NCBI GenBank assembly: GCA_030041045.1
Contig: JASHOQ010000114.1
Location: 1-64,000 of the forward strand
Direction of reading: 5' to 3'
DNA from: Acidobacteriaceae bacterium
GTDB lineage: Bacteria > Acidobacteriota > Terriglobia > Terriglobales > Acidobacteriaceae
Length of the DNA: 64,000 nucleotides
The notes beneath the pieces are model-generated. The model was not told the origin of the DNA and ran no database searches. It saw nothing but the letters and a program-made list of their open reading frames with translations. The translations under genes were made by a program, and so were the position numbers. Positions 5,740 to 20,881 of the stretch are shown here, piece by piece; the stretch's first letter is position 1; each line of letters begins with the position of its first letter.

Positions 5740-5799
5740 TCTGGTTTTGTTTCCGCCGCCTGGGGGCCCCGCCAAGTTCCTGATGTTGCTGCCTTTAGA

Positions 5800-5817: not shown

Positions 5818-6041
5818 CCGGCAAAGCAGTACATTAACACAACCCGGCGCCGAAGGCCAGAGCTAACACGAAGGAATTGCGGCTCTTGCGCTCACTCAGT
5901 CAACATTGGGCAGGGGTCTGGTCAAGCCGTCTCCGCCGCCTGCATTCAGGCCAACGCACTCGAACCCGCTCCCTACGATGATTTTCTTGAGAGGCAACAA
6001 ATGCGGATGCGGTTTCCCCGAGCCCGTGCCCGACGCGCTCC

Positions 6042-6593
6042 ATGCGACAATCCAATGCGATGGCCTCCTCGCGCAAGCCGGTGATCGTGCGCAAGTTCTC
6101 CCGGGACTGGTGCGCCGGCTATGCAGTTCCGGGCTTTGGCCGGGACTCGGCGGAGCTCGAGATCCTCGACCTCAACGGGAAGGTATTGCGCATGGCCTGG
6201 GAGCAGGTGAAGTGGATTTGCTACGTGCGCGAACTCCCTTCCGCGAGCGGCGACCTGGTCAACCCGGAACGGCTCCTGCGCAAGCGCTTTTCCATCCGCC
6301 CCAGGACGGCCGGACTTTGGCTCCGGTTGAAACTGGCGGACGGCGACGAACTGGAAGGCCTGGCGGCGAACGATCTGACCCTGGTGGAAGGCCCCGGCCT
6401 GCTGCTCGTGCCCCCGGACACGCGGTCGAACACACAGCGGATTTACGTGCCGCGCCAGGCAATCCAGACCCTGGAGGTGCTCAGCCTGATTGGCGCATCC
6501 GGCCGCAAGCGTATCCCCGAAGTGACGGTCGAGGCGGGCCAGACGGAGCTCTTTCCGGGCGATTCAGGTCCTTCCCAAGACCAGCAGGCCTGA
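6042..6593 (+). CDS. Conserved hypothetical protein, unknown function
   Basis: A 183-residue soluble protein (or 177 from the ATG at 6060, where MASSRKPVIVRKF begins). There is no signal peptide or membrane segment. The middle is beta-strand-like (LEILDLNGKVLRMAWEQVKWICYV) and the second half has a motif of alternating hydrophobic residues (GLWLRLKLADGDELEG) that looks like a small beta-barrel domain. I do not recognise a family. Codon use and third-position G+C match neighbours, so it is likely real. Its last 113 nt overlap the 3' end of the convergent glycosyltransferase gene. A longer overlapping frame (5906-6616) has the composition of a shadow and was not chosen. Confidence 0.6.
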   Translation: MRQSNAMASSRKPVIVRKFSRDWCAGYAVPGFGRDSAELEILDLNGKVLRMAWEQVKWICYVRELPSASGDLVNPERLLRKRFSIRPRTAGLWLRLKLADGDELEGLAANDLTLVEGPGLLLVPPDTRSNTQRIYVPRQAIQTLEVLSLIGASGRKRIPEVTVEAGQTELFPGDSGPSQDQQA

Positions 6594-7779
6594 TTGGACG
6601 CAGCATCCCTGTGTAAAAGGCTGCGTGAAGATCAAGCACCCGGTCGCTCCTGAAGTGCTCGCAGGCCCAGGCGCGCGCGGCTTGTCCCATTTGGCGGCGC
6701 AGCGGATCCCGGAGCAGCCTGAGCACTGATACAGCGATTGCTTCCGGACTGCCGGGCGGAATCAGCATTCCAGTCACGTTGTGCACCACCGAGTCGCACG
6801 CGCCCGTGGCCTGCGTGGTGATCACTGGAATTCCGCTCGCGGCGGCCTCGAGTATGGCATTGGGAAATCCTTCCCGTCTCGTGGGCAGAACGAGGATCTC
6901 CATGGCGCGGTAGTAGGGCGCGGTTTCGTTCACGAATCCGGTGCAGCAGATTCCGCGGTGCGCGGCAATGCGCGCCCTTAGCGCCGGATCGAGTGCATCC
7001 TCGGCTTCATCGAACCAGCCCACAAGAAGCAGGCGCGCCTGAGGCTCGGCGGCGCGGATCGCCTCGAAGGCCTCCACCAGTTCAGGCACTCCCTTGTCGC
7101 CGGTGAATCGTCCCACGAAGCCAATCACAGGCGCGTTTCTCGGAATGCCCAGCCGGGCGCGCACGTCCGTGGGCCCGGGAGAAAACTGGAGCGTATCCAC
7201 GCCGTGGCTGCTGCCCTCGCCGAGCAAGACCAGCTTTCGTTCCGGCGCAATGCCCAGCGCAAGCGCGCGGGCGCGAAGACTCGCGCTGTTGCACAAGACC
7301 ACGTGGGCGCAAGCGGCGGCCAGCTTTTCGCCGGCCAGCAGAATGCCCCGCTTGATGCCTTGCGCCGTCTCCAGCTTGAGCCCGCGCAGCAGGTAAACCC
7401 GATGCGGCACCCTGCGCAGCCAGGCGGCCAGCGAACCCAGCAACCCGGCTTTCGGCGTGCTGAACTCAACCACGTCCGGCGAGTACTTTCCCAGCATGCG
7501 CCAAAGGCGGACGAACGAAACCGCATCGGCAAGCGGGGCAATGGTGCGGCGCATAGGAAGCGGGAATGCCTCGATTCCCTCCTCCGCTGCGGTTCGGTCC
7601 AGAAGAACGCCGGGACTTGAAACCAGCGTGATGTGAAAACCCGCTTCGCGCAGGGCGCGCAGCCGATCTCGCAGCACCAGGCAGGTTTGCGGATGGGTGA
7701 TGCCCATCAGGATTGAAGGCGCACCCGGCACTCGGACGAGCGGTGGCGCTGCCAGTTGGCATGCCGCGGAAGTCGCCAT
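6481..7779 (-). CDS. GT4 family glycosyltransferase
   Basis: GT-B fold retaining glycosyltransferase, 432 residues. The acceptor-side N-terminal half contains SILMGITHPQTCLVLRDRL and HRVYLLRGLKLE; the donor-binding half has VIGFVGRFTGDKGVPELVEAF and the EX7E-type segment TRREGFPNAILEAAASGIPV followed by TQATGACDSV. Cytoplasmic, probably adding a sugar to a lipid-linked intermediate of the local exopolysaccharide. It is divergent from the next GT4 gene (7923). The last about 38 residues are Pro/Arg-rich, lie in the overlap with the convergent gene ending at 6593, and look non-conserved. Acceptor and donor sugars cannot be told from sequence. Confidence 0.88.
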   Translation of the reverse strand: MATSAACQLAAPPLVRVPGAPSILMGITHPQTCLVLRDRLRALREAGFHITLVSSPGVLLDRTAAEEGIEAFPLPMRRTIAPLADAVSFVRLWRMLGKYSPDVVEFSTPKAGLLGSLAAWLRRVPHRVYLLRGLKLETAQGIKRGILLAGEKLAAACAHVVLCNSASLRARALALGIAPERKLVLLGEGSSHGVDTLQFSPGPTDVRARLGIPRNAPVIGFVGRFTGDKGVPELVEAFEAIRAAEPQARLLLVGWFDEAEDALDPALRARIAAHRGICCTGFVNETAPYYRAMEILVLPTRREGFPNAILEAAASGIPVITTQATGACDSVVHNVTGMLIPPGSPEAIAVSVLRLLRDPLRRQMGQAARAWACEHFRSDRVLDLHAAFYTGMLRPIRPAGLGKDLNRPERAPSGPPRPSLRGYACGRMRQSG

Positions 7780-7889
7780 AAGCGAGCCTGCGATTCCGGG
7801 GGAAATTTCCTGGTTTGGGAGTAATTAAGGGAACTTTAGCACTTCTCAATAAAATATGTGTGATTTTTTATCGAAATTCGACTATATTC

Positions 7890-7921
7890 ACTTTCCAACG
7901 ATCCATTCACGATTGGAAAGT
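7890..7921 (+). promoter_or_regulatory. Hairpin covering the ribosome-binding site of the 7923 gene
   Basis: ACTTTCCAA (7890-7898) is the exact reverse complement of TTGGAAAGT (7913-7921), around a 14-nt loop. The right arm contains GGAAAG, the only purine-rich ribosome-binding site for the ATG at 7923. The region just upstream (7830-7890) is the most A+T-rich of the locus and contains TATATT-like -10 candidates. The structure could gate translation or be an operator. Confidence 0.45.
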
Positions 7922-7922
7922 C

Positions 7923-8993
7923 ATGGGCCAGAGTTTGCGGGTCCTGATACTGGTCCCCCATCTGGGCGGAGGCGGCGCTGAAAGAGTCGCCACTCTGGTA
8001 GCCGAAGGACTGTCCAAAGAGAAGTACGAGGTTCACCTGGGCCTGGTCACAGAGGGGAATCGGAAGCTCGAAATCCTGCCGCCGCCGGTCACCATTCACA
8101 GGCTGGGCGCACGAAGAGTTCGTTCCGGGGCAATTCCGTTGGTCCGTCTTGTGCGCCGCATCCGGCCTGACGTCGTCCTTTCCGGCGCGGCACATCTCAA
8201 TTTTCTGGTGCTTCTGCTTCGTCCCATGTTCCCGAAGAAGACGCGCATCCTTATCCGGCAGGATGCAACGGTTTCCTCGGTACTGGCCTTCGGCAACGTC
8301 CCCTGGTATACGTCCCTGCTCTATCGGTCTCTTTATCGCCGCGCCGACCACATTATCTGCCAATCGCGCGCCATGGCCGACGATCTGGCCCGGGAGCTGC
8401 GGCTGGGAAAAGAACGCATTGCTGTGCTGCCTAATCCAGTAGACCTCGAGGCCATCCGCGCTGCCGCCGCCGCGCCCGGCCAGGCGCCGGCCTGCTGGCT
8501 CGGTCCGGGACCTCATCTGCTTGCCGTGGGAAGACTTGCGCGAGAAAAAGGATTCGACCTTCTTCTTGAGGCGCTGGTCACGGTGCGCGAGCGCTTTCCC
8601 CGCACCGAGATGATTATCGCCGGCGCCGGGCCGGAGGAAGCCGCACTGAAGGCGCAATGCCGCTCGCTTGGCCTGGAAGAGGCGGTCCGGCTTCCCGGCT
8701 ATGTGCAGCGGCCTTACATCTTTTATGCCGGGGCTTCCCTGTTTGTTCTTTCTTCCCGCTACGAGGGCTTGCCCAATGCGCTTCTTGAGGCTGCCGCGGG
8801 CGGGCTGCCGATCGTGGCCACGCCGGCATCGGGAGGCATTGTGGAGTTGCTGCGCAACCGGAAAAAATCCTGGCTTACACCTGAGGTTTCGGCAGCCTCT
8901 CTTGCCTCCACGCTGCTCAAGGCGCTCGACGATTTGAGCACAAGCCAGCGCAACCGGCGCTCCTTCTCTCCGGCGAAAGTTCCTGAAGCCTGA
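7923..8993 (+). CDS. GT4 family glycosyltransferase
   Basis: 356-residue GT-B glycosyltransferase. N-terminal VLILVPHLGGGGAERVATLVAEGL is the Gly-rich acceptor-domain loop; the donor domain has LLAVGRLAREKGFDLLLEAL and the SSRYEGLPNALLEAAAGGLPIVATPASGG motif region with the two conserved glutamates (EX7E). Cytoplasmic role in exopolysaccharide assembly is inferred from the neighbours. The frame is open back to 7815, but ATG 7923 has GGAAAG at the right distance and begins the conserved domain. The C-terminal 40 residues after RNRKKSWL are degenerate relative to typical GT4 ends, which usually continue with GLLV-type strands; a late frameshift or truncation is possible. Confidence 0.88.
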   Translation: MGQSLRVLILVPHLGGGGAERVATLVAEGLSKEKYEVHLGLVTEGNRKLEILPPPVTIHRLGARRVRSGAIPLVRLVRRIRPDVVLSGAAHLNFLVLLLRPMFPKKTRILIRQDATVSSVLAFGNVPWYTSLLYRSLYRRADHIICQSRAMADDLARELRLGKERIAVLPNPVDLEAIRAAAAAPGQAPACWLGPGPHLLAVGRLAREKGFDLLLEALVTVRERFPRTEMIIAGAGPEEAALKAQCRSLGLEEAVRLPGYVQRPYIFYAGASLFVLSSRYEGLPNALLEAAAGGLPIVATPASGGIVELLRNRKKSWLTPEVSAASLASTLLKALDDLSTSQRNRRSFSPAKVPEA

Positions 8994-9276
8994 ATAATTC
9001 CTAAATGGCCGGACCTTCAGGCATTTGCCCTCTTGACATTCCTGTTTCAAAGATGTTTCCTTGACCTACTTCTCCCACTAGCCTTGAGCGACGTACCCGC
9101 ATGTGGGCGGGTTCGCCCTGTCGAAAACGCAACTCAGGAGGAAGATCCATCCGCCTGAGCTGCCACTTATTTATCGCTGCACGGGCCATCGAGTAATTCG
9201 CTCATTGAGCATGTTCCCTCCATGCGGTTGCGATGCCTGATCCGGTTCGGAAGCGATTGCATTCGTCGGAGGTTAT
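8994..9276. other. Gene-free stretch with a strong hairpin
   Basis: Between two co-directional GT genes. It contains CCCGC-rich pairs at about 9098-9121 and a hairpin at 9133-9159 (CTCAGG paired with CCTGAG, plus inner GGA/TCC). I compared the strand with riboswitch consensus motifs I know (c-di-GMP-I, cobalamin, TPP) and found no convincing match. A TTGACA at about 9034 is a possible -35 without a clear -10. Confidence 0.3.
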
Positions 9277-10761
9277 GTGTTCAACCGCTGCTTTGGCATC
9301 GCGCTCGCGGCATTGTTTCTCACCTTCTCCTTCCCTCGTCATTCATGGGGCCGGCTGCGCTTTCGGTGGAAGCGAGACGCCCTGGGCCGCAAGTCCGGAT
9401 CGGCAGCATCCGCGCGCGAGCAAGCGCGAAATGAGCGTGCGGCGCTGAAGTTGGCGCCGGCCGGAAATGGGCTCACGCTCGAGCCGGCCATTGCCGCCTA
9501 CGCCGAGCTGATTGACTCCACCTGCGCCGAGATCAACACCGTCCACCTGGCCATGGTCATTCCCACGCTCGATCGCATCGGCGGGGCGGAACGGCAGGTG
9601 CTGCTTCTGGCCGTCGGGTTGCGGCGGCGCGGATGGCGTGTGACCACGGTGGCCCTGGCGGGCACGGGCGGCGCGGCGGCCGCTCAGCTCAAGGCTGCGG
9701 GAGTTGAATTCCTCAGCCTGGGCATGCGCAAAGGGCTGGCCGATCCGCGGGGATGGGCGCGTTTCATTCAATGGCTGCGGCGCAACAAGCCGGACGTTGT
9801 GCACGCCCACCTGCCTCATGCGGCCTGGCTGGCCCGGTGGTCGCGTCTCCTGGCGCCGGTGCCGGTCGTCATCGACACTCTGCACAGCGCGTCGACCGGC
9901 GGACCTTGCCGGCGCCTGGTCTACCGCATAGGCCGCTCTCTGCCTGACCAGGTGACCGCGGTAAGCCAATCGGTTGCGGACGTCCATATCTCCGCCCGCA
10001 TGGTGCCCCATGCCGGTTTGACCCTCCTGCCCAACGGTGTGTGCGCGGAGGACTGGCGCCCTGACGCAAAGGTGCGCGCGGAGATGCGCAGGGAAATGGG
10101 CCTCAAGGATGAGTTCCTATGGCTGGCAGTCGGACGGCTGGAGATGGTGAAGGATTTCCCGACACTGCTCAAGGCGATGGTTGCCGTACCTCCACAGGCC
10201 CGCCTGGTGATTGCCGGCGGCGGCCCGCTTTTGCGTAACCTGGCCCGTCTGGCTACCCATCTTGGCCTTAATGAACGCGTGAAATTCCTCGGCTTTGACC
10301 CCAATGTCAAGCGCTGGTATCAGGCTGCGGATGGATTCGTGCTTACTTCGCGCTGGGAGGGGCTGCCCATGGCGCTGCTCGAAGCCGCGGCTTGTGCGCT
10401 GCCCGCGGTTGCCACCGACGTTCCCGGAAGCGCCGAGGTGATTCTCGACGGCGAGACGGGCACGCTGGTACCGCCCGCCGATGCCTCGGCGCTTGCCTGG
10501 GCCATGACCGCCATGATGCGCAAATCGCCCGTAGAACGGCGCCGGATGGGAACAGCGGCGCGGCAGCGGGTGCTCAAAAAGTTCAGTCTCGAATCCTGCT
10601 TCGACCGCTGGGAGGAGCTCTACGGTACGCTCTTGAACCGGAACTCGCGCGCGGCCGCGGTGGAGCGCGCCACTTTGCCCGGCCCGGTCAGAACTTCGGC
10701 CGGGGCCTCGGTCGGAACCACTGTCGGGACCTCGGTCAGTAGCCCACGAAGCGTTTTTTGA
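9277..10761 (+). CDS. GT4 family glycosyltransferase with an unconserved N-terminal extension
   Basis: The conserved part starts near residue 90 (HLAMVIPTLDRIGGAERQVLLLA) and includes VVHAHLPHAAWLARW, LPNGVCAEDW, WLAVGRLEMVKDFPTLLKAM and SRWEGLPMALLEAAACALPAVATDVPG (EX7E). It is a retaining GT-B enzyme likely acting on the local exopolysaccharide. The GTG at 9277 gives a hydrophobic start followed by a basic and Ala-rich stretch with no family counterpart; an internal start close to 9451-9553 is possible. The tail after residue 460 is Thr/Ser/Val-rich and ends in a 26-nt overlap with the convergent DUF2334 gene. Confidence 0.85.
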   Translation: MFNRCFGIALAALFLTFSFPRHSWGRLRFRWKRDALGRKSGSAASAREQARNERAALKLAPAGNGLTLEPAIAAYAELIDSTCAEINTVHLAMVIPTLDRIGGAERQVLLLAVGLRRRGWRVTTVALAGTGGAAAAQLKAAGVEFLSLGMRKGLADPRGWARFIQWLRRNKPDVVHAHLPHAAWLARWSRLLAPVPVVIDTLHSASTGGPCRRLVYRIGRSLPDQVTAVSQSVADVHISARMVPHAGLTLLPNGVCAEDWRPDAKVRAEMRREMGLKDEFLWLAVGRLEMVKDFPTLLKAMVAVPPQARLVIAGGGPLLRNLARLATHLGLNERVKFLGFDPNVKRWYQAADGFVLTSRWEGLPMALLEAAACALPAVATDVPGSAEVILDGETGTLVPPADASALAWAMTAMMRKSPVERRRMGTAARQRVLKKFSLESCFDRWEELYGTLLNRNSRAAAVERATLPGPVRTSAGASVGTTVGTSVSSPRSVF

Positions 10762-11515
10762 TTCGCGCCATCAGGACGCGCCGCACCGCCATGTGCGCAT
10801 GGAACTGCTCCGCCAGCGTGAGCGCGCCCAGGGGAAATTCGGCCATCACGGAATCGACAGACGTGAACTGGTGCGCGTGACCGCAGAGAAAAACCCGCAG
10901 CGCGTCCATCTGCGCCGCACTGGCGGTGTTGGGATGAATGCAGATGGTCCACAGGCCCTCCGATTTCTCCAGCGGGGCCCAGAGCTGCTGCGGAATCCAG
11001 GTCAACCCTCCGCGCACGAAGGGGACGCGCGCGAAGCCGTCAGACAGGAGATGAATGCTTTCGGCTTTGAGAGCGCGCAGGGTATTCCAGTCGAACCCGT
11101 GTTGCGGCGCAACCCATATCCTTGGGTTGAGTCCGTGATGGCGCAGAATGTCCAGGCCTTCCGAAATCCATGTGCGCTGCCAATGGCTGGGGACACCGGC
11201 GAACTCCGATGAGCGCTGCAGCGGCACGAAGCTGCGCCCGCGGCTTTGGCGCAGATGGTGATAGCCATGCAAGCCGATGGTGGCGCCGGCCTGCTCCAGG
11301 CTGCAGAGCTCGCGCCAGAACCGCGCATCGGCAGGCGAGACCCTTAAGTCCCGGTCAAGATTGTTGGGAACCACGGCCAGAATCGGCCGGATGTGAAATT
11401 CGTCGGCGAGGGCCCGGCACTGTTGCCAGCGCTCGTGGGAGACCGTGGGACAGAGATCGTCGAAGCGAAGCAAATACCTCGCCGGCCGGGGAATCGGTGC
11501 GGCCATGGCCATCAT
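10736..11515 (-). CDS. DUF2334 / polysaccharide deacetylase-like protein
   Basis: 259 residues of NodB-like (beta/alpha)7 barrel: YLLRFDDLCPT holds the catalytic/metal Asp pair, GLHGYHH the metal histidines, and WVAPQHGFD the later barrel motif. Such proteins remove N- or O-acetyl groups from sugars, so it may tailor the exopolysaccharide; the substrate is unknown. No signal peptide was seen, which fits a cytoplasmic or moonlighting form. It starts with ATGATG at 11515, overlapping the stop of the O-antigen-ligase gene by 4 nt (ATGA), with GGAGG seven bases upstream: strong translational coupling. The frame runs open to 11818, but that part only mirrors the ligase gene. Confidence 0.8.
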   Translation of the reverse strand: MMAMAAPIPRPARYLLRFDDLCPTVSHERWQQCRALADEFHIRPILAVVPNNLDRDLRVSPADARFWRELCSLEQAGATIGLHGYHHLRQSRGRSFVPLQRSSEFAGVPSHWQRTWISEGLDILRHHGLNPRIWVAPQHGFDWNTLRALKAESIHLLSDGFARVPFVRGGLTWIPQQLWAPLEKSEGLWTICIHPNTASAAQMDALRVFLCGHAHQFTSVDSVMAEFPLGALTLAEQFHAHMAVRRVLMARIKKRFVGY

Positions 11516-12768
11516 GCAGGATCCTCCGAAGGTGTGGGCCGAGCAGCCAGCCCGGGCACCGGCCGAGGCGCAGGGGGTGCGTCGAAGGAGGGAAAGACTT
11601 GATCGAGTTCGCGGGGATTTTCGGCCTTGAGCCGGCCGGCGAGCGCGATGAGGGCCATCAACAGCCAGGTGGTGCGGCTTTCCTCCACCGTTGCCACCAT
11701 CGCGGTGACCATCCACACCAGCAGCGCTGCGGCTAAAGCAACGCGCAACGGGCCGCTCGTTGCCAGCACGGAACACACGGCCAGGGTGACAATGCCGGCG
11801 GCAAGGCACAGGGCGCAAAGGCCTCCGCTCACAAGGATGGAGAGGGCCGTGTTGTGCGCCGTGTCAATGGGCGCCAGGCCCGCGGCGCTGACAAATGTGC
11901 CTGCGCCCGTGCCCGCGAGCGGCGCCTGGCGGAAGGCGTGCCATCCGGCGGACCAGATGTTGAGCCGCTGGTTCAGGTCGCCGCCGGCAAGCTGAGCCGG
12001 GATGGTGGCGAGACGATCGAAGACGGCGCCGGGAACCAGCAGCCAGGCGGCCACGGCGACGGCGGGCAAACCGAAGACTGCGGCCAGCACGGCACGGCCG
12101 TGACCGCGTGCGAGAAGGGGAATGCATCCGGCGAGCGCCACCACCGCGGCCAGAAAGCCTCCGCGCGAAGCGGTGAGCAGAACCGCCAGAAAGCCCAGCG
12201 GCAAGTAGCCCGCGGCCAGCAGGCGCCAGGGCCGGCGTGCTTCACTGCGGAGGAGCAGGCAGGCGAGCGGAAACCCGAGGTCGAGAAAGCGGGCGACGTC
12301 GTTGGGGTCCTGCCCGTAAGCGGCAAATCGGATCTGTCCGGCGGCAATCGCTTCGGGTGAGACGGCCGAGACAGCATTGACCAGCGTGAGCGCGGCCAGT
12401 ACCCAGGAGCCGGCCACAAAGGCGCGCAGCAAAGTGCGCAAATCGGCGGGCGTTTCCGCGAACTCCCATACCAGCCAGACGATCATCATCTCCTGAAAGA
12501 AGGCGCGCATCTTCTCGAGCGTGGCCGCGGCATCGATAGTCCAGAACAAGGTGAGGCAAAGCCAGAGATAGAGGGCGAGAACCATCCATTGCATCGGCGC
12601 CCAGGTGCGCACACGCCCGCCCTGCAACACGGCGGGAACGGCGGCGAGAAGCAGCAGGATCCCCAGGATGCGCGCCACGTTCCCGAGCGGCTCGCCCAGG
12701 TCGAGCGAGTACTCCCACGGAACGGCGAAAACGAACAGCAGCAGGAGAACCCAGGCGATCTTTCTCAT
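11512..12768 (-). CDS. O-antigen ligase / polymerase family membrane protein (Wzy_C type)
   Basis: 418 residues with about 10-12 predicted membrane segments (for example IAWVLLLLFVFAVPW, ILGILLLLAAVPAVL, AAVVALAGCIPLLA, LCALCLAAGIVTLAV). The family signature region is present: long periplasmic loop with LNQRLNIWSAGWHAFRQAPLAGTGAGTF followed by DTAHNTALSILVSGG, which holds the conserved Arg and His residues. Acts in the inner membrane, either polymerising repeat units or transferring them to a lipid. Its start is 3 nt after the stop of the Wzz-OPX gene, so the three genes 15354-10736 form one operon. Polymerase versus ligase cannot be decided from sequence. Confidence 0.85.
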   Translation of the reverse strand: MRKIAWVLLLLFVFAVPWEYSLDLGEPLGNVARILGILLLLAAVPAVLQGGRVRTWAPMQWMVLALYLWLCLTLFWTIDAAATLEKMRAFFQEMMIVWLVWEFAETPADLRTLLRAFVAGSWVLAALTLVNAVSAVSPEAIAAGQIRFAAYGQDPNDVARFLDLGFPLACLLLRSEARRPWRLLAAGYLPLGFLAVLLTASRGGFLAAVVALAGCIPLLARGHGRAVLAAVFGLPAVAVAAWLLVPGAVFDRLATIPAQLAGGDLNQRLNIWSAGWHAFRQAPLAGTGAGTFVSAAGLAPIDTAHNTALSILVSGGLCALCLAAGIVTLAVCSVLATSGPLRVALAAALLVWMVTAMVATVEESRTTWLLMALIALAGRLKAENPRELDQVFPSFDAPPAPRPVPGLAARPTPSEDPA

Positions 12769-12771
12769 GGC

Positions 12772-15354
12772 TTAATACCGTTGCGAATACACCAGCGCCG
12801 AGTAAATGGTGACGCCGATGGTCGATTGCACCGCCGACTCGAGCGTGCGGTTCATCAGGTTTTTTGCGAAAGAATCGGGCACAAAGATGATGTCGCCGTC
12901 GCGAATCGGCTGATCGGGGTCCTGCCCGCGCAGAAGGCGCTTGAGGTTGAGCGCGGTCAGCGTGCGGCCGTCGTTCTGCTCGCGCACCAGCACGGCCTTG
13001 CCCAGCGCGGCGTTCTGCGTAGGCCCCCACGCCAGCGCGACCGCCTGCACCACCGTCAGTTTCTGCGCGGGATCGACGGGAAAACCCCCAGGCCGGATCA
13101 CATCGCCCACAACGTAAACCAGGCCGGCGCGGCTCACCCGCACCGTGTCTCCCGCGCTCAGCTCCGGGTTGCCGTCGGAAGCGCCCTCATCTCCGCCGGG
13201 CGTGAGGAGCACGGAATGCGGCGACTGCGGATCGTCGCGATGCACCACGATCACCAGGCGGCCGGCATCGGGCGCAAGGCCTGACGCCTCGGCGATGAGA
13301 TCGAGCAGACAGTGGTGCACGCCCAGGGGATAAATCCCGGGGCGCGTCACCTCGCCGAGCACGCTTACATCCTCGCCCGCGTAGTAGGTCACCACCACCG
13401 AAACCAGCGGGTGAAGCAGCATGCCTTTCGACATCAGGACCGATTCGATGGCGCGCGCCGCCGTCTGCTCGTCCATTCCATTGATCGTTACGTCGCCCAC
13501 CAGGGGCAGCGTGACCACGCCCGCGGCGGAGACGCGCACCGCGGAATGAAACCCCGGGGTGTGATATTCGCTGATGTCGAGCCAGTCGCCCGGACCAATG
13601 GGCGCGGGCATGGGCGGCTGGCCGGAGGCAAGCGGCTGAGTGGACGCCGGCGCCAGCCCCGGCTGATTCCACACCGGCGGCGCTTCCTGCGCGTTGGGCT
13701 GGCTGCGCGTTTCCCCGGTCTGCGGAATGCGGACCACACCCGTCGGCAATCCTGAGGTGTTGGGCGTGGGCGGCTGCGCGTTCATGCGCGCCCCCGCAAG
13801 GCACAACGCGCACAGCGCAACCGCCGTGCGCAACTGGGATGGATGAAGGGTCTCGAGCATCAGCGCGCCTCCCACTGCGATCCAGATTCCCGCGAAAAAT
13901 GTAATGGCGAGGTAAAGCGGCAGATCGGGGGCAACGGGCTTCGCGGGCTGGCGGGCGTAATCGATGACTTCGAGATTCGACGTGTGCACGCCGGCTGCCA
14001 GTCCCGCCTCTTCCGCTTTTTCTTCAAGCCGCACGTACAGTTCGTGGCTTGCATTGGCCTCCTGGCGCATGGCCGCAAATTCGGTTTCCGCCTGCTCCTG
14101 CTGCAGGCTCTCGCCGGTGATCTCCTCAAGGCTCTTGCGAATCATCTGTTCCCGGTCGAGCGCGGTCTGCCAGTTGCTGCGGAACCGCTCCAACAGCCGC
14201 GCGTCTTCTCCCTTTTTCTGGTGGTCGAGATCGTCGAGCTGGCGCCCGATCTCGACCACGCGGGGATAACTCGGGCCGAACTCGGAGGTGAGCTGCGCTT
14301 TTTCCTGCTCGAGATCGCTTTCGCGTGCGCGAATCTGCGCGAGCAGCGCGGTCGAAAAGCTGCCGCCGGACGACTCGAGATGCGGGTCGGCGGCGATCAC
14401 CAGCTCGGGGTCGCCCTGCGCCGCGGCGCGATACTCCGACTCGCTCACGATGCGATCGGCAGTAGCCGCAACCAGCTGCCGTCCGAGTTCGTCCATCTCC
14501 AGCAAATCGGGGTTGTGGCCGGCCGCGCCGGTCTCGCCCGCGGCCAGCGCCTCCGGGTCGCTCACGATGCCGTGGCTGCGCTCGAAGTCCGCCAGGCGCA
14601 GGTCGTCCTGGTCCACGCGCGCTTTCAGCTCCTTCAACTGTCCGTCAAGCCAGGCGGAAGCCTGCTCCGTGGCCTGGATCTGCGCTTCGCTGGCCTGCTG
14701 GTCGTAAACACGGATGAGCATATTGACCACCGCGGCCGACAACGCCGCGTCGCGCGAGCGAAAGCGGATCTCCACCAGCAGTGTCCGAGGAATGGTCTGG
14801 ACGTCGAGCCTGCGCGCGAAGCGTTCCAGCAGCCAGGCCTGCGCGCCGGCGTTAGGAGCGCCCTGATCCGGGGCATCGGCGCGGAAGCCCGGCTGCTCGT
14901 AGAGCCTGAGCGCCAGGATGGTTCTCCAGGCCAGTTCGTCGCTGCGCAGCTCGCCGGCCAGGGTCTCCACGGCGACGGGCGCGCCCAGGATCGAGGCGGG
15001 CGTCTGCGCGTCCGCAGCGTCGAGGCTGAGGGACGAGGCCGGCGCAACGCGCAATGCGACCCGGGCTCTGGCCTCGTATTCCTTGGGTGCGATCAGGCAG
15101 TAAAGCAGGCAGGCAAGCAGCAATCCGCCCTCCGTGCCCAGCACCGCGCGGCGGCGGCGCACCACCACATCCCACAGAGCCCGCAGAGAAGTGCTGGCCC
15201 CATGGTGGCTGACCTCGTGACGGATGGCCGCGGACTCAGGAGGGATGCTGGGTTCGTAGGGCAAGTCCTGCCGATTTTTGGGATCGTCAGGCAAAGCCGG
15301 GTACCTCGGTCCCCAATCCTCTCGCAGCCTGTCCCATGCGACAAGCCGGCGCAA
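12772..15354 (-). CDS. Fused polysaccharide copolymerase (Wzz/PCP) and export protein (Wza/OPX)
   Basis: 860 residues joining two normally separate proteins. Residues 1-70: cytoplasmic. About 71-90: membrane segment 1, then a Wzz domain (KEYEARARVALRV), a long periplasmic coiled coil (130-460) and membrane segment 2 (LYLAITFFAGIWIAVGGAL, about 476-496) with the usual Pro-rich motif (KPVAPDLP). No BY-kinase domain follows. Instead a nine-residue loop and a third hydrophobic segment (TAVALCALCLAG, about 510-521) lead to a Wza-type Poly_export domain (GPGDWLDISEY, LPLVGDVTINGM, about 588-680) and SLBB repeats (DVSVLGEVTRPGIYPL; YVVGDVIRPGGFPV). Topology places both domains in the periplasm. The start is uncertain (TTG 15354 shown). 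A good internal start lies at 13860. Heads an operon with the ligase and DUF2334 genes. Confidence 0.88.
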   Translation of the reverse strand: MRRLVAWDRLREDWGPRYPALPDDPKNRQDLPYEPSIPPESAAIRHEVSHHGASTSLRALWDVVVRRRRAVLGTEGGLLLACLLYCLIAPKEYEARARVALRVAPASSLSLDAADAQTPASILGAPVAVETLAGELRSDELAWRTILALRLYEQPGFRADAPDQGAPNAGAQAWLLERFARRLDVQTIPRTLLVEIRFRSRDAALSAAVVNMLIRVYDQQASEAQIQATEQASAWLDGQLKELKARVDQDDLRLADFERSHGIVSDPEALAAGETGAAGHNPDLLEMDELGRQLVAATADRIVSESEYRAAAQGDPELVIAADPHLESSGGSFSTALLAQIRARESDLEQEKAQLTSEFGPSYPRVVEIGRQLDDLDHQKKGEDARLLERFRSNWQTALDREQMIRKSLEEITGESLQQEQAETEFAAMRQEANASHELYVRLEEKAEEAGLAAGVHTSNLEVIDYARQPAKPVAPDLPLYLAITFFAGIWIAVGGALMLETLHPSQLRTAVALCALCLAGARMNAQPPTPNTSGLPTGVVRIPQTGETRSQPNAQEAPPVWNQPGLAPASTQPLASGQPPMPAPIGPGDWLDISEYHTPGFHSAVRVSAAGVVTLPLVGDVTINGMDEQTAARAIESVLMSKGMLLHPLVSVVVTYYAGEDVSVLGEVTRPGIYPLGVHHCLLDLIAEASGLAPDAGRLVIVVHRDDPQSPHSVLLTPGGDEGASDGNPELSAGDTVRVSRAGLVYVVGDVIRPGGFPVDPAQKLTVVQAVALAWGPTQNAALGKAVLVREQNDGRTLTALNLKRLLRGQDPDQPIRDGDIIFVPDSFAKNLMNRTLESAVQSTIGVTIYSALVYSQRY
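13858..13873 (-). promoter_or_regulatory. Internal ribosome-binding site and ATG inside the Wzz-OPX gene
   Basis: On the minus strand GGGAGG (13873-13868) is followed after seven bases by ATG (13860-13858), in frame with the fusion. Translation from here would give a 362-residue protein with MLETLHPSQLR, a hydrophobic signal-like stretch and the complete OPX part. The match and spacing are better than at the gene's own 5' end. Confidence 0.5.
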
Positions 15355-15843
15355 CCATGCAAGAGGGGGATTCCCGACTGGTTTATTTATGCGAGGGGGT
15401 TTCCAGAGTTATACACCAGAACCGGGAAAATTGGCCTAGGAAAAATGACCGATCTCGGCTATTTCTTAGGGTGGGGCGATCCGCCCGGCAGTTGAGCGGA
15501 CCGTCGCCGGCCGACGGCCGCAGGGCCTGAGTGACGGCCCGAGCGAGGTTTACAAGGCTCTCGCCAGCCTTCGGGCCTTCGTGGTATTCGTGTCTCATCT
15601 TTCTCATTATGCTCCCTCGGCAGCCTTAAGAACGGTGTCCAAATGGGCCAGCGGCGCAGAAAACGAAATAAGGTCAAAACAACGAACGCCTCAAAGCAAA
15701 ACGCTGCCAAACGCCAGGAGAAATCCGCCAATCAAGGCGATAGCAGACTAAAAGGAGAACCTGTTGCTCTTTTGCCGATTGTTGAGACCATTGTTCGAGT
15801 TCCCCCATGCGAAAAGGCGAACACAGCAAAGGAAGGCGATAAG
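15355..15843. other. Gene-free leader between the EPS operon and an A+T-richer gene
   Basis: Should contain the divergent promoters. The frame of the downstream gene is open from 15643, but its first 67 residues (Lys/Arg/Gln-rich) have no hydrophobic or conserved pattern. A CGTCG-CCGGC-CGACG inverted repeat lies near 15510. Base composition changes visibly towards A+T from about 15640. No promoter was identified with confidence. Confidence 0.3.
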
Positions 15844-16518
15844 ATGCCATGGTGGAAAGACAGGCAGTTTGTTCTGCAGCTCTTGATCTTCGTGACTGGC
15901 GTTATCGTGGCCGTCATCTACGAGTGTCAACTTAGAGAGATGGCCGAATCGAACAAGATTAATCGGGAGGCAATGGAATCTGTTCAGCGGGCATTCGTGG
16001 ATTTCATCGGTTGGGATACAACACAGGAAGCTGCACCCGATGGGCACTATTTCACTGTCTTTTACCCAAAATGGGAGAATGCTGGGAACACTTCGGCAAT
16101 GCATTTGGTTTCCTACTTTGAGGCTGATACGGTCAAGACCGACTCGATAGACGGATTCCCTTTTAAGGAGCATTTCGACGAGATTGAATACGGATACCTT
16201 GGCCCGCATTCTCCTCCAGTAAGAGCCGGGGCTCAGACTTTGAGGGACACCGATATTTTTGATCTTCCTGTCGGGGAAACCGCCATCCTCTGGGGGTGGA
16301 AAGCATACGCGGATGTTTTCCATAACGCCCACGTTACCGAGTTTTGCGATCGGGTCGCCTTCGCTAACCCCGTTCCAACTCCGGACAATCCCAAAGCTGA
16401 CTTCAGAAAGAGAACCGAATATATGGTGACAACCATTAGCTGCCAAGTACACAACTGCGCTGACAACGACTGTCCAGATCACCAAAGAATTGAAGAATAT
16501 GTGACTGCAAAGCCGTAA
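15844..16518 (+). CDS. Membrane-anchored hypothetical protein, A+T-richer than neighbours
   Basis: 224 residues: a short cytoplasmic start MPWWKDRQ, one membrane segment (FVLQLLIFVTGVIVAVIY), an amphipathic linker (ECQLREMAESNKINREAMESVQRAFVDF) and a soluble C-terminal domain of mostly beta character ending in four cysteines (TISCQVHNCADNDCPDH includes three). I recognise the layout of small N-anchored proteins common in soil bacteria but no function. ATG 15844 is preceded by AGGAAGGCGATAAG. Codons are noticeably less G+C-biased than all other genes here, which suggests recent acquisition; it splits the epimerase gene from the rest of the exopolysaccharide locus. Confidence 0.65.
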   Translation: MPWWKDRQFVLQLLIFVTGVIVAVIYECQLREMAESNKINREAMESVQRAFVDFIGWDTTQEAAPDGHYFTVFYPKWENAGNTSAMHLVSYFEADTVKTDSIDGFPFKEHFDEIEYGYLGPHSPPVRAGAQTLRDTDIFDLPVGETAILWGWKAYADVFHNAHVTEFCDRVAFANPVPTPDNPKADFRKRTEYMVTTISCQVHNCADNDCPDHQRIEEYVTAKP

Positions 16519-16660
16519 TTCTGATCTTTCCTTCTCCACCCTTCGCCGTTGAATTCCTTCGACGCACATTTGGCTAATATTGACTTACGCGACGGCGACG
16601 GCGAATTTGCGCGTCAACCGTTTTATTGCCGAATATTTTCCTGGCAAGGCACGGAACCGG

Positions 16661-17605
16661 CTATGCCGGGTTGCCCTTCCGGTACCACTCCACCGTCCGC
16701 CGCAGCCCTTCGCGGAAATCCACCTGCGGCCGGTAGCCCAGGAGCTGTTCGGCGCGGCCAATGTCGGCCAGCGAGTCGCGGATATCGCCGCGGCGCGGCG
16801 GGGCGTAAGCCGGCTCACCCTTGAATCCGGTCAGGTCGCGGAGAATGGCGAAGGTTTCGTTCAGGGTAAAGCGCCTGCCCGTGGCCAGGTTCATCATCTG
16901 CCCGCTGACCTTTTCGGCGGGCGCCGCGGCCGCCAGCAGGTTGCCGTGGACCACGTTCTCAATAAAGGTAAAGTCCCGGCTCTGCCCGCCGTCACCGTAG
17001 ATGGTGGGTTGTTCTCCGGCGAGCATGCGCCGGCAAAAGATGGCCAGGACCCCGGAGTATTGCGAAGCCGGATCCTGGTATGGCCCGAAGACGTTGAAGT
17101 AGCGCAGAACCACGGTTTCCAGGCCGTAGACGCGAGTAAAGGCGCGCATGTAATGCTCGCCGGCGAGCTTGGCCACGGCGTAAGGACTAATGGGATTGGG
17201 CGCCATCTCCTCGTGCTTGGGCAAGGTGGGCGTGTCGCCATAAGCCGAGGACGAGCCGGCGTAGACGACGCGGCGCACGCCTGCCGCGCGCGCGGCAATG
17301 AGCAGGTTCAGGGTCGCGTTGACGCAGTTGTCATTGGTTTCAGCCGGAGCGGCCACGGAGCGCGGAACCGAGGCCAGGGCGGCTTCGTGAAAGACGACTT
17401 CGACACCGGCACAGGCACGTGCACAGTCCGCCGGGTTGCGCAGATCGCCTTCCAAAAACTCCATTGCCTCAAGACCAGAAAGATTCGACCGCTTGCCCGA
17501 GATAAAGCTGTCAATGCCGCGAACGGAATCGCCGCGCCCGACGAGCGCAGCAGCAAGGGAGCGGCCGATGAAACCGGCGGCTCCGGTGACCAGGTATTGA
17601 GGCAA
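16661..17605 (-). CDS. NAD-dependent sugar-nucleotide epimerase/dehydratase (UDP-glucose/UDP-GlcNAc 4-epimerase type)
   Basis: Short-chain dehydrogenase of the extended family, 314 residues. QYLVTGAAGFIGRSLA is the NAD-binding loop, GSSSAYGDTPTLPKHE holds the catalytic Ser region, SPYAVAKLAGEHY is the YxxxK dyad, and LRYFNVFGPYQDP and GDGGQSRDFTFIENVV bind the nucleotide sugar. Residues resemble WbpP/GalE-type 4-epimerases. Cytoplasmic supply of an activated sugar for the nearby glycosyltransferases is the likely role. The frame is open from 17641; TTG at 17605, eight bases after GGGAG and directly before PQYLVTG, fits family starts best. Exact substrate is not determined. Confidence 0.87.
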   Translation of the reverse strand: MPQYLVTGAAGFIGRSLAAALVGRGDSVRGIDSFISGKRSNLSGLEAMEFLEGDLRNPADCARACAGVEVVFHEAALASVPRSVAAPAETNDNCVNATLNLLIAARAAGVRRVVYAGSSSAYGDTPTLPKHEEMAPNPISPYAVAKLAGEHYMRAFTRVYGLETVVLRYFNVFGPYQDPASQYSGVLAIFCRRMLAGEQPTIYGDGGQSRDFTFIENVVHGNLLAAAAPAEKVSGQMMNLATGRRFTLNETFAILRDLTGFKGEPAYAPPRRGDIRDSLADIGRAEQLLGYRPQVDFREGLRRTVEWYRKGNPA

Positions 17606-17685
17606 GACCGCACTCCCGCGCGCAAGGTTGAGGCAATTCAAATTGGATTGCGCACGGCTAGAATACTATTGCGATCCCTCGAACC

Positions 17686-20600
17686 ATGGCGTGCACCTTC
17701 GAATTGTCTTTGCGTTCTGCCCGAATCCCTGCGGGCCCGCGTCTCTTGCGGGCGCGGCGCGTGGAGCGCCGGAGCCGGGGCCGTTCCTTCGCAGCCCTGC
17801 AAGGGGCAGCCGGAAGAATTCTGTCTGCGGCGACCATTGCAGCCGGTTTGGCGATCGCCTCCGCGCCGGTCTTCGCGCAGAGCGGCCCGCTCGCGCAGCA
17901 GATCGACGACCATGAGCAAAAGCTTGCGTCTGCGCGCGCAGCGCAGGACACGCACGCCGAGGCCGTCGAGCTCAACACTTTGGCCAACCTCTACCGGCAG
18001 ATCGGCAAGCCGCAAAAGGCCCTCGACGACTGCAACCAGGCGCTCCAGATCGAGCAGGCGGGGGGCAGCCAGGCGGGCGTAGCGCTCACCGAGAACCTGA
18101 TGGGCCGCATTTACACGGATCTCGGCGACGAGCAGAAGGCGCTGGACCTGTTCAACCAGGCCCTCCCCGTCTGGCGCACTCTCAACAACCGGCTGGGCGA
18201 GGCCACCACGCTGAACCTGATGGGCCGCGCCTACAACAACCTGGGCCAGCGGGAAAAGGCCCTCGATCTTTTGAATCAGGCGCTGCCCATCTGGCGCGAA
18301 GTGAGCAACCGCGCGGGCGAGGCCAGCACCCTCGACAATCTGGGCAAGACCTATGCCGACATGGGTCGTGGCGAAGACGCGCTCCCTTACTTCAACCAGG
18401 CGCTGCCTCTCTGGCGCGCCGTGGGCGAACAGGGAGGCGAGGCGCTCTCACTCAACAATATGGGCCGCGCGTACGAAGACCTGGGCCGCAAAGAAGAGGC
18501 TCTTGACTCCTTCAACCAGGCGCTCGCCCTCTGGCGCGCCATCGGCAATCGCCAGGGCGAAGGGCTCACGCTGAACAACATCGGCCGGCTCTACCGCGAC
18601 CTGGGCCAGCAGCCCACGGCGCTCGACTATTACAACCAGGCGCTGCCCATCTGGCGCGAAGTGGGTAACCGCAACGGCGAAGCGCTGGCTCTGAACGACA
18701 TCGGCACCGCCTACGCCACCATGGGGCAGACGCAGAAGGCGCTCGAATTCTTCGCGCAGGCACTCGTCATCTGGCGCCAGACCGGAAACCCCCGCGGCGA
18801 AGCCATGACGCTGAGCAACATCGGCTGGAACGAGTCGGAGCTGGGCGACGCGCAGAAGGCCATGGACGCCGACAGCGCAGCGCTGCCGCTCTGGCGCCAA
18901 GTGGAAGACCGGCGCGGCCAGGCGCTGGCGCTGATGATGATCGGGCGGGCGTGGTTCCAGATGGGGCAATCCGATAAAGCGCTGGTGAGCGACCTTGCGG
19001 CTTTGTCTCTGGCCAAGGCCGCCGGCGATCCGGAGATGGAAGGCAACATTGAAGCGGCGCTGATGTACGGCTTCCGCAGCAACCACCTTCCGCAGCAGGC
19101 CATTCTCTTCGGCCTGGAGGCGGTGAACGCATACCAGCAGATTCGCCGCAACATCGGCGGCCTCGACAAAGAGCTGCAGACCGGCTTTGTGCAGTCGAAA
19201 TCGTCTGCGTACCGCATGCTGGCCGAGCTTCTGGTGGAGCAGGACCGGCTGGGCGAGGCCGAACAGGTTCTCGATCTGCTCAAGGAGCAGGAGCTCAAGG
19301 AAGTGGTGCGCGGCGCAGGCGACAATGCCGCCGCAGCCGCGCAGCCCTTGAAGCTTGCCGAAAATCAGCAGAAGGCCGAGAGCCAGCTTGCTTCGGAAGA
19401 AAACGCGGCGGCCACGCTGGCCGACATGAGCGTGGAATACGCCACGCTCGAGGCCAAGAGCGGCCGCACCGCGGACGAGGACGCGCGCCTGAAGACGCTT
19501 GAGGCGGACATCGAGACCGAGAACAGCGAGGTGGCCGACTTCTTCCGCAAGACGATTTACCCCGAGCTGGCGCAGACGGCGGGAACCGAGAACGCCAACC
19601 GACTGCTGAGCCAGGAAAAGTCGGACGTGAGTCAATTGCAGAACACGCTTGCCGCACTGGGTCCGCGCGCGCTGGGGATCCGGCTGCTGCTTGGCCAGGA
19701 TCAGGCCTACGCCATCGTGGTGACAGCGCAGGCGCGCAAAAGCTTCGCGCTGCACGCCACGCCGGCCCAGTTGCGCGACAAAGCGCTGGAGGTGCGCAAC
19801 GACCTGCGCTCGCCGGACTCCGATCCCAAACCGCACCTGGCTGAGTTGTACGCCATGGTCATTGCTCCATTCGACGCGGAATTGGCTGCGCTCGAACGCG
19901 TGCCCGGCGAAAGCGGCCGCGTGCCCACGCTCCTTTGGTCGCTCGACGGCGTCCTGCGCTACGTGCCCATGGCCGCGCTCTACGACGGCCATCACTACAT
20001 GGTGGAGCGGTTCAATAATGTCTTGTTTACGCCCGAAAGCTACGGGCACATGACCAATTCCGGCGCTGACAAGCCCGATCTGCGCGTGCTGGCCATGGGG
20101 TTGTCGAAGAGTTACGGAGGATTGCCGGCCCTGCCCGGCGTGCTGCCCGAACTGGAAGCGGTTGCGCACGACCCCGCCTTCCCTGCCTCGCATGGTCCGC
20201 TCGACGGATTGCTCCTTCCCGACGACCGCTTCACTTATTCGGCGCTCAAGAGCGCGCTCGGCGCCGGCGCCGGCTTTCCCGTTGTGCACATCGCCAGCCA
20301 TTTCGTTCTGGAGACCGGCGGCGATGCGGAACCTTACCTCATGCTTGCCGGCGAAGAGTCGAGCGCCCCGCAGGGATTTGAACTGACGCTCTCCAAGCTC
20401 GAGGACTCAACCATCACTTTTCATGGCACGCGCCTGCTAACGCTTTCCGCGTGCAGCACGGCCAAGGGCGATGTGGCCGGCGACGGCCTGGAGATGGACA
20501 GCCTGGGCATGATCGCGCAGCAGAAAGATGCCGAAGCCGTGCTGGCTACGCTTTGGGACGTGAACGACCTGAGCACCAGCCGCATCATGAGCGACTTTTA

Positions 20601-20823
20601 CGCGGGCTGGGTCAGGAATCCGGACGCGGGAAAAGCCGAGGCCCTGCGCCAGGCGCAGCTCGCCTTTCTGCGCGGAAACGGCGGGACTGAGCCGGCCGCG
20701 CAATCGGGCGCAGCGGGTCGCGGCCTCGAGGCGGAGGGAAATTCCCGCCCTGCGCCGCACGCCCATGATTTTTCGCATCCGTTCTATTGGGCGCCCTTTG
20801 TGCTCATCGGCAATTACCGGTGA
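17686..20823 (+). CDS. Exported TPR-CHAT domain protein (predicted caspase-like protease)
   Basis: 1045 residues. After a basic N-region comes a signal peptide (ILSAATIAAGLAIASAPVFAQ, about 45-65). Residues 85-480 are about ten tetratricopeptide repeats, several nearly identical (pattern ALDxFNQALPLWRxxGNRxGEAxTLNNxGRxYxDLG). A helical linker follows and the C-terminus is a CHAT domain: catalytic His in VVHIASHF (about 872) and Cys in LLTLSACSTAKGD (about 923), then AVLATLWDVND and ALRQAQLAFL. CHAT proteases cleave partner proteins; here the enzyme would act outside the cytoplasm. It stands alone, divergent from the epimerase. GTG 17761 is an alternative start that gives a shorter, more normal signal peptide. 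Confidence 0.88.
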   Translation: MACTFELSLRSARIPAGPRLLRARRVERRSRGRSFAALQGAAGRILSAATIAAGLAIASAPVFAQSGPLAQQIDDHEQKLASARAAQDTHAEAVELNTLANLYRQIGKPQKALDDCNQALQIEQAGGSQAGVALTENLMGRIYTDLGDEQKALDLFNQALPVWRTLNNRLGEATTLNLMGRAYNNLGQREKALDLLNQALPIWREVSNRAGEASTLDNLGKTYADMGRGEDALPYFNQALPLWRAVGEQGGEALSLNNMGRAYEDLGRKEEALDSFNQALALWRAIGNRQGEGLTLNNIGRLYRDLGQQPTALDYYNQALPIWREVGNRNGEALALNDIGTAYATMGQTQKALEFFAQALVIWRQTGNPRGEAMTLSNIGWNESELGDAQKAMDADSAALPLWRQVEDRRGQALALMMIGRAWFQMGQSDKALVSDLAALSLAKAAGDPEMEGNIEAALMYGFRSNHLPQQAILFGLEAVNAYQQIRRNIGGLDKELQTGFVQSKSSAYRMLAELLVEQDRLGEAEQVLDLLKEQELKEVVRGAGDNAAAAAQPLKLAENQQKAESQLASEENAAATLADMSVEYATLEAKSGRTADEDARLKTLEADIETENSEVADFFRKTIYPELAQTAGTENANRLLSQEKSDVSQLQNTLAALGPRALGIRLLLGQDQAYAIVVTAQARKSFALHATPAQLRDKALEVRNDLRSPDSDPKPHLAELYAMVIAPFDAELAALERVPGESGRVPTLLWSLDGVLRYVPMAALYDGHHYMVERFNNVLFTPESYGHMTNSGADKPDLRVLAMGLSKSYGGLPALPGVLPELEAVAHDPAFPASHGPLDGLLLPDDRFTYSALKSALGAGAGFPVVHIASHFVLETGGDAEPYLMLAGEESSAPQGFELTLSKLEDSTITFHGTRLLTLSACSTAKGDVAGDGLEMDSLGMIAQQKDAEAVLATLWDVNDLSTSRIMSDFYAGWVRNPDAGKAEALRQAQLAFLRGNGGTEPAAQSGAAGRGLEAEGNSRPAPHAHDFSHPFYWAPFVLIGNYR

Positions 20824-20881
20824 GAGCCTGCGGCTGTTCCTCTCAACCATTGCATCCCCCGGTTTGTGCTAAGGTTCAAGC

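Follow-up and report, generated by a model that had tools for sequence, protein, structure and literature searches.

The polysaccharide copolymerases (PCPs) and the outer-membrane polysaccharide export (OPX) proteins are described as separate partners, and their docking has been tied to a tyrosine-kinase cycle. In E. coli (PMC12881504) the kinase cycle controls the docking and release of Wza and Wzc octamers; the complex is an octamer on an octamer in which domain D1 of Wza contacts the forearm of the helical arm of Wzc. In PMC12004946 the PCP-2 systems EpsV/EcpK and HfsA/HfsB are described as having a PCP without a fused kinase and a stand-alone pseudokinase partner. Here a gene is described from an Acidobacteriaceae bacterium (assembly GCA_030041045.1, contig JASHOQ010000114.1, positions 1 to 64,000, the window of 64,000 nucleotides that was analysed) in which a PCP and an OPX protein are encoded by a single frame without a kinase. 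A natural fusion of this kind is a test of whether the kinase cycle is needed and of whether the ratio of PCP to OPX must be 1:1. Does one frame here mean one protein? The explanation favoured below, with modest confidence and from sequence signals, is that one frame with two starts and an internal signal peptide probably yields PCP and periplasmic OPX as two proteins. No PCP-OPX fusion was found in the literature searched, of which the coverage is partial, and priority is not established.

The fusion gene is confirmed: one real frame holds a PCP that resembles Wzc but has no kinase and, behind it, an OPX that resembles Wza. Positions 15354..12772 of the minus strand form a single frame of 860 codons with no internal stops, and the plus strand at the coordinates of the gene is interrupted by stops. 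Residue numbers follow the 860-codon numbering throughout. The gene and its parts are listed here.

12772..15294, minus strand: PCP-OPX fusion gene, 840 residues from a conserved TTG (the mechanical open reading frame, ORF, opens at 15354)
15304..15307, minus strand: GAGG, a Shine-Dalgarno (SD)-like motif 9 nt before the TTG start
13777..15294, minus strand: PCP part (Wzz/GNVR) with the putative internal signal peptide, residues 21-526 (Pfam, NCBIfam, Wzc alignment)
15085..15147, minus strand: first transmembrane helix (TM1), residues ~70-90 (hydropathy)
13855..13923, minus strand: second transmembrane helix (TM2), residues ~478-500 (hydropathy; the Wzc alignment reaches Wzc residue 448)
13777..13860, minus strand: putative OPX signal peptide kept within the fusion, residues 499-526 (alignment, likeness to the N-termini of unfused OPX proteins)
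13774..13779, minus strand: predicted signal peptidase I site A526/Q527 (conserved residues at -1 and +1)
13603..13776, minus strand: tail or linker rich in P/T/S, residues 527-584, its first residues a conserved segment
12775..13776, minus strand: predicted mature OPX, residues 527-860 (Pfam, NCBIfam, Wza alignment)
13390..13602, minus strand: Poly_export domain, residues 585-655 (Pfam)
13135..13368, minus strand: best stretch of the SLBB domain, residues 663-740, SLBB_2 model (Pfam; a second SLBB stretch was also found)

Translation probably begins at the TTG at 15294-15292, residue 21 of 860. The orthologs compared were 53 rows, reduced to 47 by dropping six identical copies, with a median protein identity of 60%. 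The residue-21 column holds 30 TTG, 9 GTG and 1 ATG codons among the 43 orthologs having a residue there; an SD-like 4-mer stands 5-16 nt upstream of the start codon in 34 of 40, and two orthologs have an in-frame stop immediately upstream of it. With this start the fusion protein would therefore have 840 residues. Pfam finds GNVR at residues 429-499 (36.5 bits, cut-off 27.7) and Poly_export at residues 585-655 with two SLBB stretches, all above cut-off, and Wzz at residues 56-105 under its cut-off. Among the NCBIfam models, EpsF and eps_transp_fam match the N-terminal half and EpsE the C-terminal half, all below cut-off, and the Wzc models cover only residues 365-501, outside the kinase. The PCP assignment combines these matches with hydropathy, which places two TM helices around the periplasmic Wzz/GNVR region, and with the alignment to Wzc through TM2; the OPX assignment combines Poly_export and SLBB with an alignment to Wza. 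No AAA_31 or other kinase-domain match was found in the fusion protein by Pfam, and on this count it is not a PCP-2a protein. The C-terminus of the OPX part, where a class 1 OPX such as Wza has its outer-membrane helix, is a conserved segment with a weak hydrophobic moment; a structure model made from a 3-sequence alignment was poor (mean pLDDT 35.4).

That the fused frame is an artefact of assembly or sequencing joining two genes is hardly credible. The gene is broken in four genomes of the genus, which speaks for an artefact, but two of these breaks (G444 and G449) lie away from the junction and the two near it are a run of NN within the signal peptide (G440) and a frameshift just after it (G472). 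In a search of 80 genomes of the genus (E<=1e-60), 64 matched, and the junction is spanned by one match in one frame in 59 of the 80 (rows counted by hand, G444 and G449 included). The match is confined to the OPX part in G446 and G482, and is only to a kinase-length PCP (34%) in G448; 35 of the 42 genus genomes of good quality match, a count that includes G448. In a sample of 150 genomes of the family ten contained the fusion: four belong to the same genus, and the other six, with 47-54% identity, to two further genera. A profile search of 399 genomes of the class gave 15 full-length matches, all from the same genus or from one of those two other genera, and two PCP-only matches besides. In 396 genomes of the phylum (E<=1e-60) there were four fusions, all from the same genus, and distant fusions could escape this cut. 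The artefact was rejected as the fusion recurs across the genus and two further genera. Trees of both halves, in which 16 of the 47 fused ortholog rows were used, place all 16 on one side of a 100/99 branch with respect to the unfused rows, consistent with a single origin of the fused genes. Outside the phylum the sampling for fusions was slight. There were matches in 218 of 72,556 plasmid records, none with 80% of the query covered in a single place, and among the 12 plasmid matches listed 11 have two annotated genes and one has none. A candidate fusion in a betaproteobacterial metagenome-assembled genome (L039) was rejected, as two separate overlapping ORFs are present there.

A first-pass annotation of this DNA had proposed that PCP and OPX are fused in one gene, and had suggested a search of genomes with the full-length protein. 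The search recovered the same one-frame order in the genomes given above, and the fusion itself stands. The annotation had also named a stop or frameshift at the junction, or an assembly error, as what would overturn it; the frame is free of stops here and the junction is spanned in one frame in most of the genus genomes searched, although the frameshift of G472 and the NN run of G440 do lie close by. Its further proposals were that an extra hydrophobic segment puts both parts on the periplasmic side and that no outer-membrane lipoprotein signal is visible. A third segment that would place the OPX in the periplasm is indeed present, and there is no lipobox: Q, never Cys, stands at +1 in 47 of 47 orthologs.

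The nature of this third segment is central to the question of one protein or two. Behind TM2 follow a short loop, a hydrophobic stretch that varies in sequence (most columns have entropies of 1.4-2.5 bits) and a near-fixed [A/G]-Q-[A/P]-P. The residue at -1 is A in 36, G in 10 and P in 1 of the 47 orthologs; at -3, 45 of them have one of A, L, G, S, T, I and V, and the other 2 have M. A second set of 20 loci, none among the 47, was made up of 18 further genomes with L065 and L066; L065 is misplaced at an NN run, yet it was kept in the counts of 20. In this set Q is at +1 in 20/20 and A or G at -1 in 19/20 (one site by eye). All 27 distinct frames of unfused OPX proteins listed have [A/G/S]Q after a hydrophobic stretch, as judged by eye. 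The best reading is that the third segment is the own signal peptide of OPX, apparently retained for function, because its motif is like that of unfused OPX and because Q and not Cys is at +1. At the level of the motif the site agrees with that of signal peptidase I. A crude survey of signal peptides in the window and in the loci of relatives gave Q at +1 in 11 of 89, compared with 4.6% after the same motif elsewhere; it is too noisy and was not counted as support.

If the segment were not cut, it could act as a membrane anchor. The gene product would then be a permanent covalent PCP-OPX in which the third segment holds OPX in the inner membrane while a linker of 58 residues climbs along the outer face of the PCP; eight such chains would make a trans-envelope channel with a fixed 8:8 ratio, and docking driven by a kinase would be unnecessary. 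This is possible, though unlikely. In its favour are the single frame, kept in 59 of the 80 genomes of the genus and also in two other genera, and the 20 of 47 orthologs that have no internal SD and start codon of the kind described below. The contact of the Wza and Wzc octamers at the forearm of the helical arm, as given in PMC12881504, is a point to which about 58 extended residues could span (~200 angstrom by our own estimate). On the other hand, the conserved A/G-Q motif is not needed by a mere TM segment, the biased internal SD and start in 27/47 would be pointless if the fusion alone works, and in the third segment the hydrophobic run without charges most often measures 15 residues (31/47; range 9-20 across the 47 orthologs, with 20 residues scanned), which is short for a stable TM helix. 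In the 20 orthologs without the internal SD and start, A or G is at -1 and Q at +1 in 20/20, which favours the cutting of a long precursor, beyond the short product alone.

The second signal lies inside TM2, at two positions.

13868..13872, minus strand: putative internal Shine-Dalgarno GGAGG, codons 495-496 in TM2 (sequence, codon bias)
13858..13860, minus strand: candidate ATG for an internal start, residue 499, with 7 nt between it and GGAGG

An OPX begun at the ATG of residue 499 would carry a signal peptide of 28 residues. An SD with a start codon at 499/500 is found in 27 of the 47 orthologs, the gene of the window included, and 0/19 unfused PCPs carry such a pair at the matching place. 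Gly495 is encoded by GGA in 31/41, compared with a gene background of 17.6% (p=8e-16), and is the most biased of 42 conserved Gly positions, the next having p=1e-5. Synonymous sites among the 47 orthologs should be near saturation, because their median protein identity is 60%; kinship among the orthologs nevertheless weakens all p-values given for the internal start. In a non-redundant subset of 30 sequences under 72% identity the count for GGA is 17/24 (p=1e-7), and in the second set 13/17 (p=1e-6). When codons were shuffled synonymously within genes, an SD and start within residues 495-505 was expected in 7.3-7.5 orthologs and is observed in 28/47. This segment ranks first of 80 (z 10.6; next non-overlapping 4.0) and is also first in the subset (z 6.7; next non-overlapping 4.6). 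In the second set the pair is present in 9/20 as compared with 4.2 expected, and 3/1000 shuffles were as high. TTG at residue 499 is enriched in the full set (14/27, p=9e-6, second of 96 Leu positions). The pair is thus favoured within the long frame, in 27/47 orthologs only.

Pausing of ribosomes at SD-like sequences has been considered an aid to membrane insertion. The GGAGG in TM2 may accordingly be read as a pausing signal that helps to insert TM2 and the third segment, and not as part of a start; four of the 31 orthologs with the SD-like motif lack a start codon at 499/500, as this would allow. It is a very improbable explanation. A start codon is at 499/500 in 27/31 orthologs with the SD and in 8/16 without it (Fisher p=0.009), and in the window the spacing of 7 nt separates the two elements.

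Internal starts within a frame have precedents. For SctQ/YscQ, an in-frame internal start yields the C-terminal part, and the full-length product needs it for assembly (PMC4295842); for Cas8b/Cas11b, an in-frame internal start yields the C-terminal part (PMC11899642). A mixed assembly modelled on YscQ/YscQC of the injectisome may therefore be imagined, in which the full-length PCP-OPX has a structural role and so does a free OPX made from the internal start, whose subunits fill up the OPX ring. The start signals in 27/47 orthologs and in 9/20 of the second set would fit, and the precedent in PMC4295842, where the full-length product depends for assembly on the protein made from its internal start, is of the right kind. 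The internal start is, however, not in all orthologs, and a cut at the conserved site would sever the tether; this assembly appears improbable. A further reading is a kinase-free trans-envelope polysaccharide machine from one gene in which full-length PCP-OPX chains, at least partly uncut, seed the OPX ring and free OPX from the internal start completes it, such that a covalent tether and a second translation start jointly replace the docking and release cycle of the kinase. This combination is regarded as doubtful.

The favoured explanation, in which PCP and OPX are probably two proteins, would proceed in the following way. Ribosomes starting at the TTG would make a PCP-OPX precursor that is inserted as TM1, the periplasmic PCP domain and TM2, and the signal peptide would span the membrane a third time. 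A cut by signal peptidase I behind residue 526 would follow to give membrane PCP and periplasmic OPX in equal amounts, and ribosomes starting at the ATG of residue 499 would add extra OPX, exported and cut in the ordinary fashion. The OPX ring would then dock on the PCP ring, and the resulting conduit would have no kinase of its own. Some of the control exerted by the kinase could be taken over by the equal output of the two parts from one frame and by the additional OPX begun at the inner start. The single covalent chain with 1:1 stoichiometry that the first-pass annotation had proposed lacks support in that form, given the signal-peptide-like third segment with its A/G-Q site and the internal SD and start in 27/47 orthologs, and the overall interpretation of that annotation is partly supported.

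Several observations weigh against the two-protein explanation. Met is at -3 in the window's own site, Pro is at -1 in its 83% relative L037, and Cys is at -1 in L107 of the second set. The tail behind the site is long and even (56-66 residues in the 47 orthologs), compared with 8-53 residues in unfused OPX proteins, of which 16 of the 27 frames were measurable and 11 were not, one measured site (L089) looking misassigned. The first residues of the tail are near-invariant, as may be expected of a functional tether. The narrow length and the near-invariant start of the linker are not explained by simple cleavage, and they keep the covalent model alive. The consensus of the tail opens with Q-A-P-T-P-S-T-S-G-L-P-T-G-V (Q-P-P-T-P-N-T-S-G-L-P-T-G-V in the window) and has P-N-P-K-E-A-P-x-V-W further on; neither segment was seen in the listed N-termini of unfused OPX proteins. 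With regard to the internal start, the SD and start pair is absent in 20/47 orthologs, so that a second start is not universal, and TTG at 499 is only sixth of 112 positions in the non-redundant subset (p=0.013). Residues 660-670 are also above the shuffles (34 vs 19.9), as are residues 550-560 in the subset (7 vs 1.8). Kinship also links the second set with the first, and it includes two loci, out of 20, that were inspected earlier. The main uncertainty is that cleavage and internal initiation are both predicted from signals in the sequence.

How might such a gene have arisen? The unfused relatives examined are separate genes, mostly a PCP-kinase and then an overlapping OPX. AAA_31, which has the kinase fold, was above cut-off behind GNVR/TM2 in 8/8 unfused PCPs scanned; 19 of the 23 unfused PCP rows are 731-858 residues long, and several of the remaining rows are cut by the ends of loci. 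PCP precedes OPX in 14 of 18 distinct same-strand pairs, and each of these 14 has an OPX frame, possible start codon included, that begins ahead of the PCP stop. In one genus genome that lacks the fusion, a single contig carries a PCP and an OPX as separate genes along with a Wzy of 35% identity (L075, G448:C137), perhaps a distant unfused counterpart of the fusion cluster. If the start of a downstream OPX gene overlapped the PCP gene, a deletion that removed the kinase segment behind TM2 would have brought that start to the end of TM2, and a matching frame would have made one gene of the two. After fusion, a new stop before codon 499 would truncate TM2 and a later stop would destroy OPX. Any new stop would be harmful and therefore the fusion could be locked in without a useful covalent link.

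The first-pass annotation had noted that no separate kinase was visible and had proposed checking other loci for separate genes; on both points it is borne out for this contig and this genome. A search with the BY-kinase family TIGR01007 in the own genome found none on the fusion contig and found kinases on other contigs. Stand-alone frames of the kinase family are present on contigs C103 and C28, and these kinases could act in trans on the PCP part of the fusion, as does the separate BY-kinase that partners a PCP-2b protein and is usually encoded by a neighbouring gene. The same genome also has separate PCP-kinase and OPX genes on contigs C20 and C130, where the systems are unfused.

The genes around the fusion identify the kind of locus. 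The neighbouring features are given below.

11512..12768, minus strand: Wzy/O-antigen ligase-like polymerase (Wzy_C, Pfam), its ATG 3 nt past the fusion stop
10736..11818, minus strand: DUF2334 protein, domain at ORF residues 114-306, N-terminus uncertain (Pfam)
9277..10761, plus strand: GT4-type glycosyltransferase (Pfam)
7815..8993, plus strand: GT4-type glycosyltransferase (Pfam)
6481..7779, minus strand: GT4-type glycosyltransferase (Pfam)
16661..17641, minus strand: NAD-dependent sugar epimerase (Pfam)

Judged by its gene content, this is a Wzx/Wzy-type surface polysaccharide locus, because the neighbours are Wzy, three GT4 proteins, an epimerase and a DUF2334 protein. Wzy adjoins the fusion in 12/12 loci of relatives checked. 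When whole genomes were searched for Wzy, 5/5 with the fusion matched, and of those without the fusion 8/10 had no match and 2/10 a distant one only. A flippase candidate of the MurJ/MatE family is next after Wzy in 9/12 of the relatives' loci; at 11480-11820 of the window a flippase gene is missing, the sole match in the own genome being elsewhere at 22%, and in the 83% relative G478 the flippase match is only 24%. In L065, L066, L071 and L072 the fusion has beside it a protein whose N-terminus resembles that of the epimerase, as judged by eye. No beta-barrel Pfam match, as for the partner of a class 3 OPX, was found among the eight neighbours scanned, a subset of the ORFs, and there is no Rfam match in 6000-22000. 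Two further ORFs were noted. At 3742-5775 on the minus strand is one with the appearance of a nucleotidyltransferase, whose long C-terminal tail is rich in Lys, Ala and Pro and recalls those of histone H1-like proteins, and at 17686-20823 on the plus strand is one with TPR repeats and a CHAT protease-like domain, with a possible preceding signal peptide ending in VFAQ.

Comparison with known systems shows what is shared and what is not. Profiles of the two halves, built from 18 orthologs, were searched against solved structures. The PCP-half profile finds E. coli Wzc, a PCP-2a (whole-sequence E=2e-14), in aligned stretches that run from TM1 (~residue 20) through TM2, which ends at 448; Wzc has a cytoplasmic BY-kinase after TM2, whereas the fusion has a putative signal peptide and OPX there. 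The OPX-half profile aligns to residues 67-344 of E. coli Wza, a class 1 OPX (2j58, E=5e-15). Wza has a lipoprotein cysteine, in contrast to the Q at +1 of the fusion OPX. EpsE/EpsF (TIGR03028 and TIGR03017) are the best-scoring equivalog models of the two halves, with scores below both cut-offs; they are two neighbouring genes as annotated on the plasmid of H1 and one frame in the fusion. EpsV/EcpK and HfsA/HfsB are like the fusion in having a PCP without a fused kinase, but their pseudokinase partner has no equivalent on the fusion contig. The FbcH cytochrome b/c1 precursor of Bradyrhizobium links a membrane protein and a periplasmic protein by an internal signal peptide that is cut, and this cut is reported to be experimental. 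The fusion would have a like architecture in unrelated proteins, and its cut is predicted. An internal start together with a signal peptide is a warning that two domains joined in a database entry are not necessarily joined in the protein, and if the two-protein explanation is true it adds a case from the cell envelope to the class of one gene that makes two proteins. Unlike the internal products of SctQ/YscQ and Cas8b/Cas11b, the predicted internal product of the fusion would be exported with its own signal peptide.

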